Shown here in pieces: positions 50,331 through 59,664 of a DNA stretch of 64,000 nt. The position numbers and the translations under genes are program-made. Each line of letters opens with the position of its first letter. Within the stretch, counting starts at the first letter, position 1. Below the pieces are notes generated by a model, which worked only from the letters and a program-made list of their open reading frames with translations, was not told the origin of the DNA and ran no database searches. This DNA comes from Desulfovibrio mangrovi (GTDB lineage: Bacteria; Desulfobacterota; Desulfovibrionia; Desulfovibrionales; Desulfovibrionaceae): the NCBI RefSeq assembly GCF_026230175.1, contig NZ_CP104208.1:1674001-1738000 (forward strand), in the 5' to 3' direction.

Positions 50331-50465
50331 TTTCTTTTTCCATGAGAATTACAGCTGAAAACAAGCCAGCCATGCTGGACACAGGTTTGAGGAAAGGCTA
50401 TTTGTGCCGGACGCGATTCAACGCGCAGACGCCAACCATGACTGCCTCCGGCAGAAGGAGACATG

Positions 50466-50837
50466 ATGAAACGACTTGTACTGGCGGCTCTCATCACCTG
50501 CCTGTGGACCTCCCCCGGTTTTGCTGACGATAAATTCGGCAAGATGGACAAGGACGGCAACGATTCCGTCAGCTGGGAAGAATTCGAAGCCCATCACCCC
50601 AACATGCGCAAGGCTGCATTTGAAACCATAGACAAGGATTCCGACGGCGCCATCTCGCATGATGAATGGCACGCCTTCATGGGATCGCATGGTGCCGACG
50701 GCAAGGCCATGGGCGGCGGAATGGGCCAGGGCATGCAGATGCCTCCCAAGGGCGGCAAGGGAATGCCCCCCGGCCATCCCCCCACGGGCAAGGACGGGGG
50801 AAAGATGCTCATAGAGCCCCCCAAGAAAGCGGAATAA
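50466..50837 (+). CDS. Small periplasmic EF-hand calcium-binding protein
   Basis: A 123-residue secreted protein. Signal peptide in residues 1-20 (KRLVLAALITCLWTSPGFA). The mature part has two EF-hand loops with DxDxDG spacing: MDKDGNDSVSWEEF and IDKDSDGAISHDEW. The rest (about 75-123) is rich in Gly, Met, Pro and Lys, is probably unstructured and ends PPKKAE. AAGGAG ends two bases before ATG 50463 and five before ATG 50466, so I use the second. Role is unknown; calcium sensing or storage is inferred from the loops alone. Confidence 0.85.
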   Translation: MKRLVLAALITCLWTSPGFADDKFGKMDKDGNDSVSWEEFEAHHPNMRKAAFETIDKDSDGAISHDEWHAFMGSHGADGKAMGGGMGQGMQMPPKGGKGMPPGHPPTGKDGGKMLIEPPKKAE

Positions 50838-50890: not shown

Positions 50891-52864
50891 TTAAGCGGAA
50901 GCGGCTTCAATAGTCCGCGATTCGGGAATGTACCTGAAGGTCACCGCCTGCAACGGGCTGGAAACGGTAAACATCGCCTCGCCAATGGTGACGACCGTAC
51001 CCGGATGTACAACACCCGTCACCTTTATGGTGGTATCCTTCATCCGCTCTGCCGCCTTCTGCCTGGCTTCAAGCAGTATCTCCCGCAATGTATCAAGACG
51101 TTCTGTCAGCTTGTCCCGCAACCCCATGGCCGCCTCTATCACTTTATACTGATCAGGACGGGCATGCATGAGAATCTCCTCGGCGGGTGCTTCCCCGAAC
51201 TTTGCAGACAGCTTCGCCAAGGCCTCCTTCACGCTGTCACGCTCTTTCTCTATATCCCGGGTGGCTTTGGAGCTCGCAGCCAGAATGATGTTTGTGGGAG
51301 TGCCAAGGGCATTGCCCACTTCCAACGCCCTGATCCCCTTGCGGCAGGTGATGCTGCCGCCTTGAATACGCCCACGTCCGGATGTGGCGAGTACCATTCC
51401 ACCACACATGATGGTCGAGTGGAGTATGGAGTCATGCACGATCACATCCTCCCTCGCCTCAATCATGGCTTCGGAAATGAACTTGGCCGTCACGTTGCCG
51501 CCGCACCGGACAAACCCCTTGCCCTGCATGACGATTCCGCCGCTCACTTCAATATTTCCACCGGCAATGATGCGGGCAGATTCAACCGCCTCGCCCACCA
51601 CAACAGCCCCGGGAGCCTTGACGGAAAAGCCGGAAAGCACTGCCCCCTTAACCTTTACGGAACCGGTGGCAACCTGCACGTTACCTGAGCTGAAATCCAC
51701 GTCTCCCTTTACTTCCACCACTTCCTGCACAGACAGAACACCGCCGACATACTGGGCCAGCCCTGATATCTGAGCCACCGCGCTACAACCGTCCTGCGCC
51801 AAGACCACACTCTTGTCCAACGTCACGTTGGCCGCCTTCCCCATCTCGGCAGGCAAGGTTTCGCCATACACGTCCATTCCGCTGATGCCGGCTGTCGGAG
51901 GATGGATGACTGCCACGGTCTCACCGCTCTGCACGGAAGGCATGATGCCCCGGTTGCGGAAGTCAATGCTACCGTCCGACGCGGCCTTGCCCACCGCTGC
52001 GGCATCGTCCTCGCGCTGCAACATTTCCACAAAACCGTCCACACCGTGAAGCGGCAGCCTGCCACGGGCCAGAACCACATCCGCTTCCGGGCTTCCCGTA
52101 CGCTCGCTCCGGGCCAGAGCGCTGGTTATGGCGTCAATGTCGATCAATGCATCAGGCACGTTCATGGCCTGCAACATGAGGCGCACCCGTTCCGCACTCA
52201 CAGGCTTTGCCAGCATGTCCCTGTAGTACAGTGTTGCTGTGACGGTCAGCCTGTCCTCGGAAATACGGACCAGCGGCCTGATATTGATGGAAACATCCGT
52301 AATGGATACAAGTCCGTACACTGAGGGAACGATTTCATTGGAGCCTTCATCAAGATAACAGTTGCAGTCTGCAGGAATGGTTATCTCGCGAGGCTTGTGA
52401 GGAGACTGGGGGGGAAATTCAGTTCCATCCACGCGCATGCCGGATTTGGGCGGGGTGGCAGGCACAAGATTGCCAATAGGCTGGCCGGGAAAGACCGGAA
52501 AACTCGTGTTGCCGTATGGCACGATGCAGGCATCCGTACCGTTTTCCGGCTGCAGTCCCCGTGCAATGACTATTCTGTCGATGGGGCTTCCGCTGGCAAT
52601 GCACTCCAGCAGTTTCTCCACCCCTTTTATGCTGACAGGAACTTTTACTCCCGCTTCGCGCAACAACTTCTGAATACGCTCGATAGTAAGCGGCCTGCCG
52701 TTACCCCGAGGAGGAATATATCGGGCCACTCCGACTTTCATGCGGTCCTGCGTTCCCGAAAAGCGAACGGATGCATCCGCGTGTTCAGGCGGCGCCTCGC
52801 CTTCCTTCTGAACAGCCGAGGCCACTGCAGCAACCGAGTCTTTATCTGATACGGCACAGCCCAT
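50891..52864 (-). CDS. FapA family protein (DUF342)
   Basis: A 657-residue soluble protein of the FapA/DUF342 family, found widely in Desulfovibrio-like, Vibrio and Thermotoga genomes. The N-terminal half contains two related ISxDRL/GxxLA modules. The central Gly-rich region (IPADCNCYLDEG, then repeated GGNIEVSGG, KVKGAVLSG motifs, about residues 390-520) forms a right-handed beta-helix. A coiled-coil (about 555-620, AKERDSVKEALAKLSAKFG-like) and a final strand region follow. GAGGT precedes ATG 52864. In some bacteria FapA homologues are tied to polar chemoreceptor or cell-pole organisation; its role here is unknown. Confidence 0.85.
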   Translation of the reverse strand: MGCAVSDKDSVAAVASAVQKEGEAPPEHADASVRFSGTQDRMKVGVARYIPPRGNGRPLTIERIQKLLREAGVKVPVSIKGVEKLLECIASGSPIDRIVIARGLQPENGTDACIVPYGNTSFPVFPGQPIGNLVPATPPKSGMRVDGTEFPPQSPHKPREITIPADCNCYLDEGSNEIVPSVYGLVSITDVSINIRPLVRISEDRLTVTATLYYRDMLAKPVSAERVRLMLQAMNVPDALIDIDAITSALARSERTGSPEADVVLARGRLPLHGVDGFVEMLQREDDAAAVGKAASDGSIDFRNRGIMPSVQSGETVAVIHPPTAGISGMDVYGETLPAEMGKAANVTLDKSVVLAQDGCSAVAQISGLAQYVGGVLSVQEVVEVKGDVDFSSGNVQVATGSVKVKGAVLSGFSVKAPGAVVVGEAVESARIIAGGNIEVSGGIVMQGKGFVRCGGNVTAKFISEAMIEAREDVIVHDSILHSTIMCGGMVLATSGRGRIQGGSITCRKGIRALEVGNALGTPTNIILAASSKATRDIEKERDSVKEALAKLSAKFGEAPAEEILMHARPDQYKVIEAAMGLRDKLTERLDTLREILLEARQKAAERMKDTTIKVTGVVHPGTVVTIGEAMFTVSSPLQAVTFRYIPESRTIEAASA

Positions 52865-53138: not shown

Positions 53139-55199
53139 ATGAAAAATGCACCTGCACACACTGACCACCCTGCCGGGCGCACCCCGCTGCCCCAACCTGC
53201 CTTTCTGCCCATGACCCGAAAGGAGATGGACGCGTTAGGCTGGGATGAACTTGACGTCCTTATCGTCACCGGCGACGGCTACGTTGACCACCCGAGTTTT
53301 GCCGCCGCCCTGCTCGGCCGCTGGCTCATCGCCCACGGCTACCGTACGGGCGTCGTAGCGCAACCCCGCTGGGACACTACGGATGACGTTACCCGTCTGG
53401 GCCGCCCTGCCCTGTTCACGGCCGTAACCGCAGGTGCTCTTGATTCCATGCTGGCCCATTACACCGCCTTCCGGAAAAAGCGCCACGACGACGCGTACAC
53501 CCCGGGCGGCAAAGCCGGCGCACGCCCCAACAGAGCCGTCATCGCCTACACCAGCCTCATCCGGCAGGCATTTCCCGGCATGGGCGTAGTCATCGGCGGC
53601 ATTGAAGCCTCCCTGCGCCGCATCACCCACTATGACTTCTGGACCGACAAGCTGCGCCGCCCCATCCTGCTGGACAGCAAGGCAGACTGCCTTGTCTACG
53701 GCATGGGTGAGAACGCGCTGTTGCAGATTGCCAGAGCCATGGACGTCCACGGAGGACACTCCGGCATACCCTTAAGGGAACTGGTGGTCGGCATCCCGGG
53801 TACGGCCGTCATGGGCAAGCCTTCCGGCCATTTTTCCGACCTTGCAGACATGGGTATCCCCGCACCGGCAACAGGCCTCTCGCCAGATATTCCCGAAGAC
53901 GCTCCCGCCTACCCGCTGCCCTCACATGAGGCAATGGAAGCACAGCCGGAGCTGCTCATGACCGCAACACTGACCCTTGAACGCCACGTACATCAGGCTC
54001 AGTCATGGGCCGTGCAGCCTGTTGCGGGCAGAGCCGTCCTGCTAGCTCCGCCTGCCGAGCCGTTGTGCGAAGCGGACATGGACAGACTGTATTCCCTGCC
54101 CTTTGCCCGCAGAGCACACCCCTCGTACACGGAAGCCATTCCTGCCGATGCCATGATCTGCACGAGCATCACCACCCATCGCGGATGCGGCGGCGGATGT
54201 TCGTTCTGCTCGCTTGCCCTGCATCAGGGGCGCCGCATTGCGTCGCGCAGCCACCAGTCCGTTATGGATGAAGTCAGGGCATTGGCGGGCTCCAAGAAAT
54301 TCAACGGCTCCATCAGCGACGTGGGCGGCCCCTCCGCCAACATGTGGCAGGCAGAGTGCGCAGCCGATCCTTCCAAATGCACCCGAGCCAGTTGCATGCA
54401 CCCAAAGATATGCCCCCAGTTCAAGGTCAACCAGACCGAAGCCGTGAACATGCTGCGCCGTATTCGTGACGAGGAAGGCGTAAAGCATGTCCGCGTAGCA
54501 AGCGGCGTGCGCTACGACCTTGCCCAGCAGGACGACACGGCTCTGCGCGCCTACACCATGGAATTCACCGGCGGCCAGCTCAAGGTGGCACCGGAACATA
54601 TTTGCGACACCGTTCTCGACCTGATGAGAAAGCCCGGCCTGCCGGTTTTTGAAGCCTTTCTGCAAGCCTTTGAACGGTATTCGGAAAAGGCGGGCAAAGA
54701 GCAATATGTCATCCCCTACCTCATGAGCGGCTTTCCCGGCTGCGCGGATGACGACATGCGCCGCCTTGGAGACTGGCTGAAGCGCAGAGGCTGGAAGCCC
54801 CAGCAGGTACAGTGCTTCATTCCCACCCCCGGCACCGTGGCCACAGCCATGTTCTATGCCGGCATCGCGCCGGACGGCAGGCCGATAACCGTTGCCAGAA
54901 CCGATGCCGACCGCCTGCGCCAGCATCACATTCTCATGCCTGAAATGGGCCGCAAGGGAACCGGAACGCAAGGGCGACAGGAAAAAGGCCGCAGTCATGG
55001 GCAGGCAGGCCCCGGCAAAAGCCCTGAAAAACGTCATGATGCCAGAAAGCCAAACAGCAAAGACAGTAACTGGTCCGAAGAGAGACCCCGGAACGCCGGA
55101 AGCGACAACCGTCAGAAACATACCGGACAAAGCGGCGACGGACGGCAAGGCACACACGGCGGGAAAGGCAGATCACAGGGCGGCAGGGGCAGACGCTAG
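53139..55199 (+). CDS. YgiQ family radical SAM protein
   Basis: A 686-residue radical SAM protein of the YgiQ/UPF0313 family. LDVLIVTGDGYVDHPSF and GVVIGGIEASLRR..HYDFW are the N-terminal family motifs. The cluster motif is THRGCGGGCSFCSL (CX3CX2C) near residue 350, and a second Cys group (CAADPSKCTRASCMHPKICPQF) near 405 may hold another cluster or metal. Residues from about 605 are a basic, Gly/Lys/Arg-rich low-complexity tail longer than in E. coli. The reaction is unknown. ATG 53139 lacks a strong ribosome site; it is not adjacent to other radical SAM genes. Confidence 0.94.
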   Translation: MKNAPAHTDHPAGRTPLPQPAFLPMTRKEMDALGWDELDVLIVTGDGYVDHPSFAAALLGRWLIAHGYRTGVVAQPRWDTTDDVTRLGRPALFTAVTAGALDSMLAHYTAFRKKRHDDAYTPGGKAGARPNRAVIAYTSLIRQAFPGMGVVIGGIEASLRRITHYDFWTDKLRRPILLDSKADCLVYGMGENALLQIARAMDVHGGHSGIPLRELVVGIPGTAVMGKPSGHFSDLADMGIPAPATGLSPDIPEDAPAYPLPSHEAMEAQPELLMTATLTLERHVHQAQSWAVQPVAGRAVLLAPPAEPLCEADMDRLYSLPFARRAHPSYTEAIPADAMICTSITTHRGCGGGCSFCSLALHQGRRIASRSHQSVMDEVRALAGSKKFNGSISDVGGPSANMWQAECAADPSKCTRASCMHPKICPQFKVNQTEAVNMLRRIRDEEGVKHVRVASGVRYDLAQQDDTALRAYTMEFTGGQLKVAPEHICDTVLDLMRKPGLPVFEAFLQAFERYSEKAGKEQYVIPYLMSGFPGCADDDMRRLGDWLKRRGWKPQQVQCFIPTPGTVATAMFYAGIAPDGRPITVARTDADRLRQHHILMPEMGRKGTGTQGRQEKGRSHGQAGPGKSPEKRHDARKPNSKDSNWSEERPRNAGSDNRQKHTGQSGDGRQGTHGGKGRSQGGRGRR

Positions 55200-55314: not shown

Positions 55315-57456
55315 TCAGACGGGCTTGCAATCCGAGGGCATGGGGATACCGCTCTTTTCCATGACTTCAACAAGCGCATTGCGGGCGTCCACCTTCATAG
55401 CGCTCAACAGGACACGCGCATCGGACGAACACAGCAGCTCCGAACACCGCTGAACCGCACCGGCCTGTTCTGATACGGCCTTACCCGTACTGGCAGAACA
55501 GGCCACCGGAACATGCTCGCACAGAGCCTTTTCCACGGTATGCACGATATCAACGTCCACGGAACGGGGCATAAGCACCCGTTCAAACACAGGAGCCTGC
55601 GCGTCCTTCTGCAACAGGGCAAACACCGCGGCAGCCATTTCCGGCGCCTTGCGCAGCAGATGCCTGAGCACCATACCGCACACGCCATAGGTTTCATGCG
55701 CAAGCATTGAAGCAACCCCTTCGGTGCTACACATGGACAGACAGTCAAAGGGCAAGGCATGAGCGCCTTCCGCCAGCAGCTTGCTGACCTGTATGAACGT
55801 ATCCGACGTGAAGCTGCGCATCAGCAAACGGCCCACAATGCCCTTGTCCACCACAAGCGGACTACCGCAGGCAATACCGGGATTATCTTCCGCACATATT
55901 TCCGTTGCCTGCGACGGGAACAGTGAAGGTAGCGTGGCGATAGTGCCCAGAAAACGGGCAGCCTTTTCAGGCGTGCACATGCGCAGAATGTGCGAAGTAT
56001 ATGCCTCGCCCATGAGCAGGGAGCGCACGGCCACACGCTGCTCCATGGAAAGGGTACGCAGAACGGAAGCGCGTCTGCCCATCCGGCGCACCAGCTCTTC
56101 CTGCAGTTCCTTGCTCATGCGCTGCAAAACCCGCAGACGCCTGTCCTCCGACATCTGGTAAAGCACCACGGAAGCCAGCAGCGGATGCGATTCACTCAGC
56201 ACAACGCTCAACTGCTCGTCCGAAAGAATACGCAACCTGAGGAATGCCTCATCGTCCGTCTCCGTGGAAGCGGGCATGAGTATCCGCCTGTTGCTTGCCA
56301 GCAGCATCTCCAGCGGCCGCAACATATCAACAGGGAAGAGGAGCATCAGACGACCGGAGAACTCGCCGTCGGAAACGGAAAATGAAACGAGGATACACTC
56401 GTCCTGCTCACCGAATTCGATGATCGGCTCATCGGGAGCAAGCACCCTGTAGCGGGAGGTCTCCACCTCGAAGAAGGGGGCAAGCGCCCACTCCAGATCA
56501 AGCTGAAATACGTGCAGACAATGTGCAGCAACCGCCTGCGAGGCCCGGGAAAGCTGACTATCCTTGGCCTGCGGATGCAGTTCGGGGAACGTACGCTCCG
56601 GCCCTCTGTCCATAAGACGTGATGTGATAAGCTGGACAAGATCGCTGTCCGCCCCGAACAGAGCCACCCCTTCCAGCGGCTGCATCGTAAGCGTTGCAGA
56701 CACCGGCTTCGAAAAGCGTGACCATGCCGCAAACTGCACTCTTCTGGCTGCACCGGGAACAACCACCCAGCGACGCGTGGACAGGGCATACAACCTGCGT
56801 CCGATGGCGGTTCCCAACCGCCCCATCACCCTGTCCAACGTGGGGAATCGCAGGGGTACCTCGGCCACATCCTGCCCCTCTCCCGCCGTGCCGGAGGGAC
56901 CGAACTCCGGTATGGAAAGCAGCTCCAGCAGCTCTCCAAGATCAGACGGCAGATAGCCTTCGCTACCCCCGCTCCATTGTCCATTGCGTGACGCGGCGCT
57001 TTTCTGACGGGCTCCGAACAGGGGAAGCACAGCCCCGCCTCTCTCGGGGCCGGAGGGAGAACTGCCCTGGCCGGAATCTCCGCTCCTCAGTGGATTGATT
57101 CCGTCGTCCCCCGCGCCGGAAAGAGCGGATTCCCAGGCTTCATCGCCAGTCGGCAGTTCATCGTCCTTTACGGAATGCTCGTCATTCAGCAAAGGATCAT
57201 ACATCCTGTCCCCGTCAATGATGCCGTCCAGCATGTCCCCCCCAAAGCCATTGGGAAAGAGCTCATCCGAATCCGGATCGCTGCCTGAACGCGAGGCAGA
57301 AGTGTCATGATATGCATCGGAGACATAAGAAAAGCGCGATGCCGCCTGCTCTTTTCCTTCCCCTTCTGCCCCAGCCCCGTTGTCCACGGCACGACCATGC
57401 CCCCCGCCGCTGCCGAACAACTGCAGAACCTTTCTTTTCACTTTCTTCTGCTTCAT
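55315..57456 (-). CDS. Hybrid FliM/FliG-like protein
   Basis: A 713-residue protein. Residues 1-170 are low complexity (Gly, Ser, Asp, Glu). Residues 204-385 resemble the middle (CheC-like) domain of FliM: LDRVMGRLGTAIGRRLYAL, then the PLEGVALFGADSDLVQLIT and FSGRLMLLFPVDMLRPLE segments. In place of FliM's C-terminal SpoA domain, residues 410-475 resemble the FliG middle domain (LSDEQLSVVLSESHPLLASVVLYQMS, LQEELVRRMG), and residues 575-650 resemble a second copy (GVASMLAHETYGVCGMVLRHLL ... VEKALCEHV). No flagellar gene adjoins it. ATG 57456 has only a weak upstream site. Assignment is by motif reading; the family needs confirmation. Confidence 0.65.
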   Translation of the reverse strand: MKQKKVKRKVLQLFGSGGGHGRAVDNGAGAEGEGKEQAASRFSYVSDAYHDTSASRSGSDPDSDELFPNGFGGDMLDGIIDGDRMYDPLLNDEHSVKDDELPTGDEAWESALSGAGDDGINPLRSGDSGQGSSPSGPERGGAVLPLFGARQKSAASRNGQWSGGSEGYLPSDLGELLELLSIPEFGPSGTAGEGQDVAEVPLRFPTLDRVMGRLGTAIGRRLYALSTRRWVVVPGAARRVQFAAWSRFSKPVSATLTMQPLEGVALFGADSDLVQLITSRLMDRGPERTFPELHPQAKDSQLSRASQAVAAHCLHVFQLDLEWALAPFFEVETSRYRVLAPDEPIIEFGEQDECILVSFSVSDGEFSGRLMLLFPVDMLRPLEMLLASNRRILMPASTETDDEAFLRLRILSDEQLSVVLSESHPLLASVVLYQMSEDRRLRVLQRMSKELQEELVRRMGRRASVLRTLSMEQRVAVRSLLMGEAYTSHILRMCTPEKAARFLGTIATLPSLFPSQATEICAEDNPGIACGSPLVVDKGIVGRLLMRSFTSDTFIQVSKLLAEGAHALPFDCLSMCSTEGVASMLAHETYGVCGMVLRHLLRKAPEMAAAVFALLQKDAQAPVFERVLMPRSVDVDIVHTVEKALCEHVPVACSASTGKAVSEQAGAVQRCSELLCSSDARVLLSAMKVDARNALVEVMEKSGIPMPSDCKPV

Positions 57457-57720: not shown

Positions 57721-59145
57721 ATGAGCCGCTACCGCAAATTGTGCATCTATCACACTCTGGACGGCCTGCGAGAAGGTCTGTCGCACTTCTCCGGCCCCAG
57801 CCGCGCCGCGCTGTTGCTCGCACTGCATCCGGACGACCCCATCCATGTCCTTGACCCCCAGTTTCTGCTGGACGGCCACCAGCCCAAGCTGCGCGAACTG
57901 TTCATCGAATCCGTGGAATGGCAGGGAGCCTGCCCCACTCCGGACAAATTGCGACCGTACGAACTGTGCCCCTACCCTGATCCGCAGCTGACCGGCCTTC
58001 TGGCCTTTGGCGGCAGCAACAGGGATGTGCCCTTTCTCATGTGGTTTACGGAAGAGCACCCCGACTTCTGCTCCACCGGCCCGACCCGCTGCTGGCTGGA
58101 ACACGCAGCCGCCCAGCTGGTGCTGGATCTTGCTGCCAACAACGACATGCGGGACAGTGCTTCCGGCTTTGTCCTGCAAAGCTACGCAACCCATGCCGTA
58201 CGCGACTATATTGTGGATCGCCGCAACTCGTCCGTCGGGCTTGATACGTACCTGCGGGTCTACCCCACGCTGGACACCATTCTGGGCATTTCCCACACCC
58301 GGGAAGAAGGTGCATGGCCACGCGGTGCCCTTGTTTTTGTAGAGCCCATGTTCCTGAAGCATCTGGATTTTCTTGCGAGCTTTCCGCGAATGGAACAACC
58401 TTCCCTCGCCAACCTGCGTCACTGCCGCAAGTTACTGCAAGCGGTGGAGGAAACGCACCGAATGCTCGTTTCCGACGGCAAGACCATCGTAGGCATCACA
58501 CAGGATAAGCTGCCCCCCGGAAGCATCATTGCCAACTTTGAAGGCCGGCACGGCTTCCTGTATCTGGATGATGAACTCATCTGCTCATTTGCAGACGGCG
58601 CCTTCCAGTCCACAAACCGCAGAGCCAACCTTGTGCAGCTGGAAGAAGCCCTGCTGGAATCTCGTCTGTCCTACGACACGCAACATGCCCTGTTCCGCAT
58701 CGTCACGGATATCGTATCCTGCGCACAGGAACGCAAGCATGGCTGCACGCTGGTGCTCGACCTTCGGGCCATTCCCCGCAACCTTGCAGGACAGACGCTG
58801 CACTCACCACTGGACCTGACGACGAAAGACGGTATCGAACTGGCCTGCTCCCTTGCCAAGGTGGACGGCGCACTGCATATCGGTCACGACGCCAACCTCT
58901 ACGGCTTCGCCTGCCTGCTGGACGGCAGAGCAGTGCCCGGTGAAAACCGCGCCCGCGGAGCCCGGTACAATTCCGCCGTACGCTTTACAGCGGCAAATGA
59001 CGACCTTATCGTCATCGTCGTATCATCGGACAGGCCGGTCTCCATCATTCAGCGCGGGATGGAACTCACGGCCCGCTGCTCATGGACGCCGCTGCCGGGT
59101 CGTGCACCGGAGCCCCCCACGCTGGAAGAATGGCTCAAACTGTAG
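57721..59145 (+). CDS. Diadenylate cyclase-like (DisA_N/DAC domain) protein
   Basis: A 474-residue soluble protein. The N-terminal half (1-300) is unrecognised. From about residue 360 it resembles the DAC domain that makes cyclic di-AMP: VDGALHIGHDANLYGFACLL (DGA at 382-384), a GARYNSA segment at 413-419 at the position of the usual GTRHRAA motif, and DDLIVIVVSSDRPVSIIQRG, the typical final strands. The RHR motif, which contacts ATP phosphates, is altered to RYN, so cyclase activity is uncertain. GGGGAAGG precedes ATG 57721. Divergent from the FliM/FliG-like gene; about 265 bases between. Confidence 0.75.
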   Translation: MSRYRKLCIYHTLDGLREGLSHFSGPSRAALLLALHPDDPIHVLDPQFLLDGHQPKLRELFIESVEWQGACPTPDKLRPYELCPYPDPQLTGLLAFGGSNRDVPFLMWFTEEHPDFCSTGPTRCWLEHAAAQLVLDLAANNDMRDSASGFVLQSYATHAVRDYIVDRRNSSVGLDTYLRVYPTLDTILGISHTREEGAWPRGALVFVEPMFLKHLDFLASFPRMEQPSLANLRHCRKLLQAVEETHRMLVSDGKTIVGITQDKLPPGSIIANFEGRHGFLYLDDELICSFADGAFQSTNRRANLVQLEEALLESRLSYDTQHALFRIVTDIVSCAQERKHGCTLVLDLRAIPRNLAGQTLHSPLDLTTKDGIELACSLAKVDGALHIGHDANLYGFACLLDGRAVPGENRARGARYNSAVRFTAANDDLIVIVVSSDRPVSIIQRGMELTARCSWTPLPGRAPEPPTLEEWLKL

Positions 59146-59199: not shown

Positions 59200-59664
59200 A
59201 TGCCGAAATACTGGCTCATGAAGTCCGAACCGGGCTGTTTCTCCATTGACGACCTCAGGAATCTTCCCGACGGCACAAGCCCGTGGGACGGCGTCCGCAA
59301 CTATCAGGCCCGCAATTTCATGCGGGACGAGATGCGCAAAGGCGACATGGTGCTTTTCTATCACAGCGTAACCGATCCTTCCGTGGTAGGTTTGGCAGAA
59401 ATCGTACGCGAGAGTTATCCGGACCACACGTCATGGGATCCGGAAAACAGCCACTTCGACCCCAAGTCCACTCCCGAATCTCCCCGTTGGTTCATGGTGG
59501 ATGTACGATTCGTTGCCAAGTTTGACCGCCCGGTCCCGTTGCGTGTTCTCAAGGCAACACCAGGGTTGGAAGGCATGGAACTGCTTAGAAAGGGCTCACG
59601 CCTTTCCGTCATGCCTGTAAGTGAACAGGAATTTTCCATCATCCGCGACCTTGCCAAAGCCTGA
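59200..59664 (+). CDS. EVE domain protein
   Basis: A 154-residue single-domain protein of the EVE family, related to PUA and YTH folds, which can read modified bases. [16 protein letters not shown] at the N terminus, [15 protein letters not shown] and the [24 protein letters not shown] segments are the classic EVE signature. Length fits. It begins 54 bases after the DAC-like gene, probably the same transcript. Confidence 0.93.

Follow-up and report, generated by a model that had tools for sequence, protein, structure and literature searches.

The window analysed here is a stretch of 64,000 nucleotides from Desulfovibrio mangrovi (contig NZ_CP104208.1, positions 1,674,001 to 1,738,000 of the forward strand). 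Its gene at 55315..57456, on the minus strand, encodes a protein that joins parts of the flagellar switch proteins FliM and FliG in one polypeptide, and homologues of this fusion gene occur in all 10 genomes of the genus to which the window belongs (Halodesulfovibrio). We propose that the fusion works as a lineage-specific accessory to the flagellar C-ring and arose by joining FliM-middle to one FliG-middle module, FliG-N and another FliG-middle module, and we give this reading a probability of about 0.45. The original prediction described an open reading frame of 713 residues at this place; the frame is real, it occupies the interval together with its stop codon on the minus strand, and the plus strand of the same interval contains several stops. 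Within NCBIfam the protein matches TIGR00207 (fliG) at residues 466-675 with 30.5 bits, against a cut-off of 226.7, and TIGR01397 (fliM) at residues 205-401 with 25.7 bits (E 5.9e-6), against a cut-off of 219.6. Since both matches are far under the equivalog cut-offs, the protein is by these profiles neither FliG nor FliM, but contains parts of both.

The modules were delimited by segment-by-segment profile-profile comparison of 14 fusion homologues with 28 FliM and 21 FliG, all FliM and FliG being from the same order; the FliM of two genomes (G014 and G018), which the search pattern missed, are absent from the FliM alignment and from the FliM tree. From the N- to the C-terminus the order is FliM-middle, FliG-middle, FliG-N and FliG-middle, flanked by two tails, all encoded on the minus strand. 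Residues 1-199 (56860..57456) form a variable, probably disordered tail; it opens with basic residues, has a KVLxLF/KVLPF motif near its start and carries, in the Halodesulfovibrio alignments, an E-A-W-x-x-[AS]-[LF]-[ST]-G-like motif. The FliM-middle domain, of CheC-like fold, covers residues 200-390 (56287..56859; E 4.1e-10 over 172 columns against FliM) and is followed by the first FliG-middle-like module at residues 402-465 (56062..56253; E 2.3e-6 against FliG 108-171). The FliG-N module takes up residues 467-560 (55777..56058; E 4e-11 over 94 columns against FliG 7-101) and the second FliG-middle module residues 567-649 (55510..55758; E 1.8e-7 against FliG 108-187), after which a variable C-terminal tail closes the protein (residues 656-713; 55318..55491). 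Neither tail matches the FliM or FliG profiles, and reversed profiles gave E-values no better than 0.19. Taken together, residues 466-651 are collinear with FliG 6-189 over 183 columns (E 6.5e-16).

Pfam detects FliM at residues 254-385 (E 8e-4, under the curated cut-off), FliG_M in two stretches (E 2.6e-11, above the cut-off) and FliG_N at residues 469-536 (E 8.2e-6; 26.8 bits, just above the cut-off of 25). A FliG_M scan of the D. mangrovi genome located the two stretches at residues 414-461 (under the cut-off) and 581-647 (above it). At E <= 0.01, FliG_M and FliG_N are found in each of the 14 members, MgtE_N in 8, FliM in 4 and FliG_C in 1, and in at least one member (L004) the FliG_N match is under the Pfam cut-off; the NCBIfam fliG and fliM models match 12 and 8 members, respectively. 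Comparison of predicted folds recovers the complete FliM-middle domain and both FliG-middle copies, with FliG-N barely covered. Searching with the whole model, the first FliG appears at rank 34 (E 0.037); with the FliG part alone, Foldseek gave no match at E <= 0.001, but ranks 1-13 were all FliG, with large rmsd. The domain-by-domain check suggested at the outset recovers the FliM-middle and FliG-middle modules both by profiles and by fold. The residue ranges first given for the FliM-like part (204-385) and the FliG-middle-like parts (410-475 and 575-650) agree with Pfam, TIGR and the profile comparison, and it was correctly noted that FliG-type modules occupy the place of SpoA behind the FliM-middle domain. 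Of the two FliG-middle-like repeats both are present, but the FliG-type modules amount to three, as the FliG-N module between them had been overlooked.

FliG-N is described as binding the FliF tail, FliG-middle as binding FliM and the FliG C-domain as meeting the stator (PMC7064773), and FliG has been divided into five subdomains, of which the final one bears the torque helix (PMC11087270). The fusion retains the FliF-docking and FliM-binding modules of FliG and adds a FliM-middle domain, without the torque domain. A scan of the genome for SpoA (PF01052) at E <= 10 matched FliN, FliM and, weakly, two other places, but not the fusion gene. In the Pfam search of the protein itself, neither SpoA nor, even at E <= 10, a FliG-C torque domain was detected. 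A single member (L007) just passes the threshold of FliG_C (PF01706; 23.8 vs 23.3 bits), at residues 381-460, i.e., at the first FliG-middle module, for which the profile comparison favours FliG-middle (E 2.3e-6) over FliG-C (E 0.037). In this module all 14 members still have the HP of EHPQ, the motif that binds FliM, extended to HPQ in the 4 members from a second, GC-rich genus of the same family; the second module has retained the E and lost the HP.

The suggestion that the protein senses CheY-like inputs is not supported. With a matrix derived from the 28 FliM, the CheY-binding peptide of FliM was absent from all 14 fusion tails (shuffle p 0.19-1.0), and ExxN, the catalytic motif of the CheC and CheX phosphatases, is absent from the FliM-middle part in 13 of 14 members, the lone ExxN in L011 standing by itself. 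A FliN-like W-motif was also sought in the fusion tail with a matrix, which gave a shuffle p of 0.024 for the window protein and of 0.14-0.86 for the other 13, and is not claimed. The EAWESALSG-like tail motif of Halodesulfovibrio resembles the repeated WAAAL motif of FliN from the same genomes; FliN of this family (L041, G000:C1:2502280 region) has 2-4 LAxxWAAALxxxE repeats in its N-terminal part.

In the mechanism that we propose, FliG-N would dock the fusion at the motor base, where it could sit either on the tail of FliF or between FliG-N domains, and the FliM-middle domain together with the HP-bearing FliG-middle module may mimic the FliM-FliG contact within one chain. Because it has neither the FliN-binding SpoA domain nor the torque helix, a fusion subunit inside the ring or in contact with it would be unable to take torque, and it would thus cap, limit or check C-ring assembly, or act as a brake-like spacer, rather than substitute for FliG or FliM. 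In its most specific form, which we consider rather unlikely, this torque-less hybrid enters or caps the C-ring and sets its completion, switching or stator engagement, and would be a dedicated dummy rotor subunit, a class of component not known from any flagellar motor. FliG and FliM touch each other with their middle domains. The number of ring subunits and the start and stop of assembly are debated, and a protein with both contact halves and a FliF-docking module, lacking torque and FliN-binding parts, could serve as a probe of the contacts sufficient for ring entry.

Conservation is uneven along the protein. FliG-N is the segment of highest identity in each of six pairs (90-97%), compared to 45-69% for the N-terminal tail, and for this reason the FliF/FliG-docking module seems to be the core of its job. 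Whole-gene dN/dS within Halodesulfovibrio is 0.14, 0.07 and 0.08 in three pairs, rough values as dS exceeds 1, and dS is saturated in the fourth. Over the five pairs of both genera that gave a value (0.07-0.45), these ratios indicate purifying selection on the fusion gene.

Ordinary FliG, FliM and FliN are encoded elsewhere in the D. mangrovi genome, which fits the idea in the original prediction of a second element beside a normal switch. All 15 carriers examined have FliM and SpoA/FliN genes; the family search for FliG covered the D. mangrovi genome only. The fusion is evidence, too, that evolution can rearrange components of the switch into a protein of its own, kept alongside an intact motor.

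Besides Halodesulfovibrio, the fusion is found in six genomes of the second genus, perhaps Nitratidesulfovibrio (G108, G110, G111, G113, G114 and G115), and no fusion was found in two further genomes of that genus (G109 with 820 contigs and G112 with 590 contigs). The survey of the order that had been suggested thus places the gene in two genera, but in no other genus: among 348 genomes, a profile search gave no match outside these two that spans the FliM and FliG parts, and 13 further genomes matched over the FliG-middle part only, the one inspected being MgtE. A profile of residues 198-480 searched against a sample of 395 genomes of the phylum returned 40 rows besides the gene itself, with 11 over the FliM half, 29 over the FliG half and none over both; two of these loci were a complete FliG and a complete FliM by Pfam. 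Neither the family search nor 20 ygiQ loci of other genera yielded a further fusion. As the wider searches scored few candidates per genome, within one phylum, fusions may occur elsewhere. A viral origin was also considered and rejected, as no relative was present among viral contigs. The FliM tree groups both carrier genera with G010 and G020, from two genera without the fusion, at 100/100; its internal order is not resolved, and hence a single gain followed by losses and a single late gain are indistinguishable. We found no description of a natural FliM-FliG fusion in the open-licence literature; engineered FliF-FliG fusions are known (PMC11481574).

All 15 loci read share the gene order EVE-like gene, (DAC gene), fusion, ygiQ. 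In the window, the convergent neighbour is a YgiQ-type radical SAM gene (53139..55199, plus strand), beyond which the second genus has a histidine kinase gene. The divergent neighbour is a DisA-type (DAC) gene with DACND/DACNH sensor domains by Pfam (57721..59145, plus strand), present in 10/10 Halodesulfovibrio and 0/5 second-genus loci. It is followed by a small gene (59200..59664, plus strand) which we take to be EVE-domain-like; in the second genus it is this gene that lies next to the fusion in divergent orientation. The statement that no flagellar operon surrounds the gene holds, yet a gene of the FapA family is found at a distance of two genes (50891..52864, minus strand); such a gene is near the fusion in 4 of 10 Halodesulfovibrio within the stretch read (Pfam), which we count in favour of a motor accessory. 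Adjoining the FapA-family gene, positions 50463-50837 encode a small protein that has two calcium-binding motifs of the EF-hand type.

Several observations weigh against a role at the C-ring. The fusion is outside any flagellar operon, and we know of no motor role for its constant neighbours (ygiQ, the DAC gene and the EVE-like gene). No sigma54 or sigma28 promoter above shuffles was detected within 300 bases upstream at the 15 loci (lowest p 0.06, with a simple consensus for each). The GGxG loop, which is FliM's contact with FliG, occurs at the aligned place in none of the 14 members. The second genus shows less constraint, with dN/dS of 0.35 and 0.45 in two pairs; here G113 lacks an ATG where the gene usually starts, and in G114 the gene is split over two overlapping frames (L080, G114:C6, about 192500-194500), either by a frameshift or by a sequencing error. 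Lastly, 15 of the 30 FliM-bearing genomes searched belong to genera without the fusion, i.e., flagellated relatives manage without the gene.

The chief alternative is that the protein left the flagellum and that its switch-derived modules form a scaffold or signalling hub elsewhere, perhaps tied to the DAC gene (cyclic-di-AMP-type). The missing operon and promoter match, the lost GGxG loop, the absent CheY peptide and the constant DAC neighbour in Halodesulfovibrio would all fit such a departure, which we regard as doubtful but possible. However, none of the second-genus loci has the DAC gene adjacent, the most conserved part of the protein is its motor-docking module FliG-N, and the carriers examined all encode FliM and SpoA proteins.

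A second alternative, by analogy, is that the fusion reads an assembly checkpoint: it would bind the finished FliF-FliG platform and relay a signal through its long tail. The FlgS kinase of Campylobacter jejuni acts in this way (PMC7064773). FliG-N and FliG-middle are parts which could distinguish assembled from free subunits, and the tail is indeed long and variable with short conserved motifs, but no signalling domain was found in it and the annotated Halodesulfovibrio neighbours include no kinase gene, so that this seems unlikely. It is very improbable that the FliG-middle-like modules are generic helical repeats (ARM/MgtE-type), with the FliM part alone derived from the motor. The cytosolic N domain of MgtE has a helical repeat related to FliG-middle, with weak matches, but the fusion has no CBS, transport or MgtE membrane domain, and the 183-column collinear alignment and the FliG_M and FliG_N matches in every member point to FliG. 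That the gene is a pseudogene in decay or an artefact of annotation, to which the split gene in G114 might point, can practically be dismissed, as the gene is open and in place in all 10 Halodesulfovibrio, with the low dN/dS given above.

Compared with FliG, the proposed C-ring accessory protein shares FliG-N followed by FliG-middle, but it differs by the missing torque domain, the extra FliG-middle ahead of FliG-N and the fused FliM-middle. From FliM it has the complete middle domain, in sequence and predicted fold, without SpoA, the CheY-binding peptide and the GGxG loop. FliY and CheC/CheX are likewise among the nearest known systems. Extra proteins of restricted lineages that act on the C-ring have been reported, namely CheO of Campylobacterota (PMC9665402) and MotV and MotW of Vibrio (PMC8789113), their action having been found via FliM/FliG suppressors (PMC9665402, PMC8789113). 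We liken the fusion to these by role and claim no sequence relation; in the passages cited none of the three is described as a FliM-FliG fusion. Campylobacter also has an extra FliY beside FliN (PMC6946799). Among the carriers of the fusion, five (G002, G008, G009, G111 and G113) have a third SpoA match, in frames of 391-529 amino acids, which is perhaps a type III secretion protein (SctQ-like). A link of the fusion to type III secretion was rejected, since with this protein in only 5 of 15 carriers the fusion does not track it.
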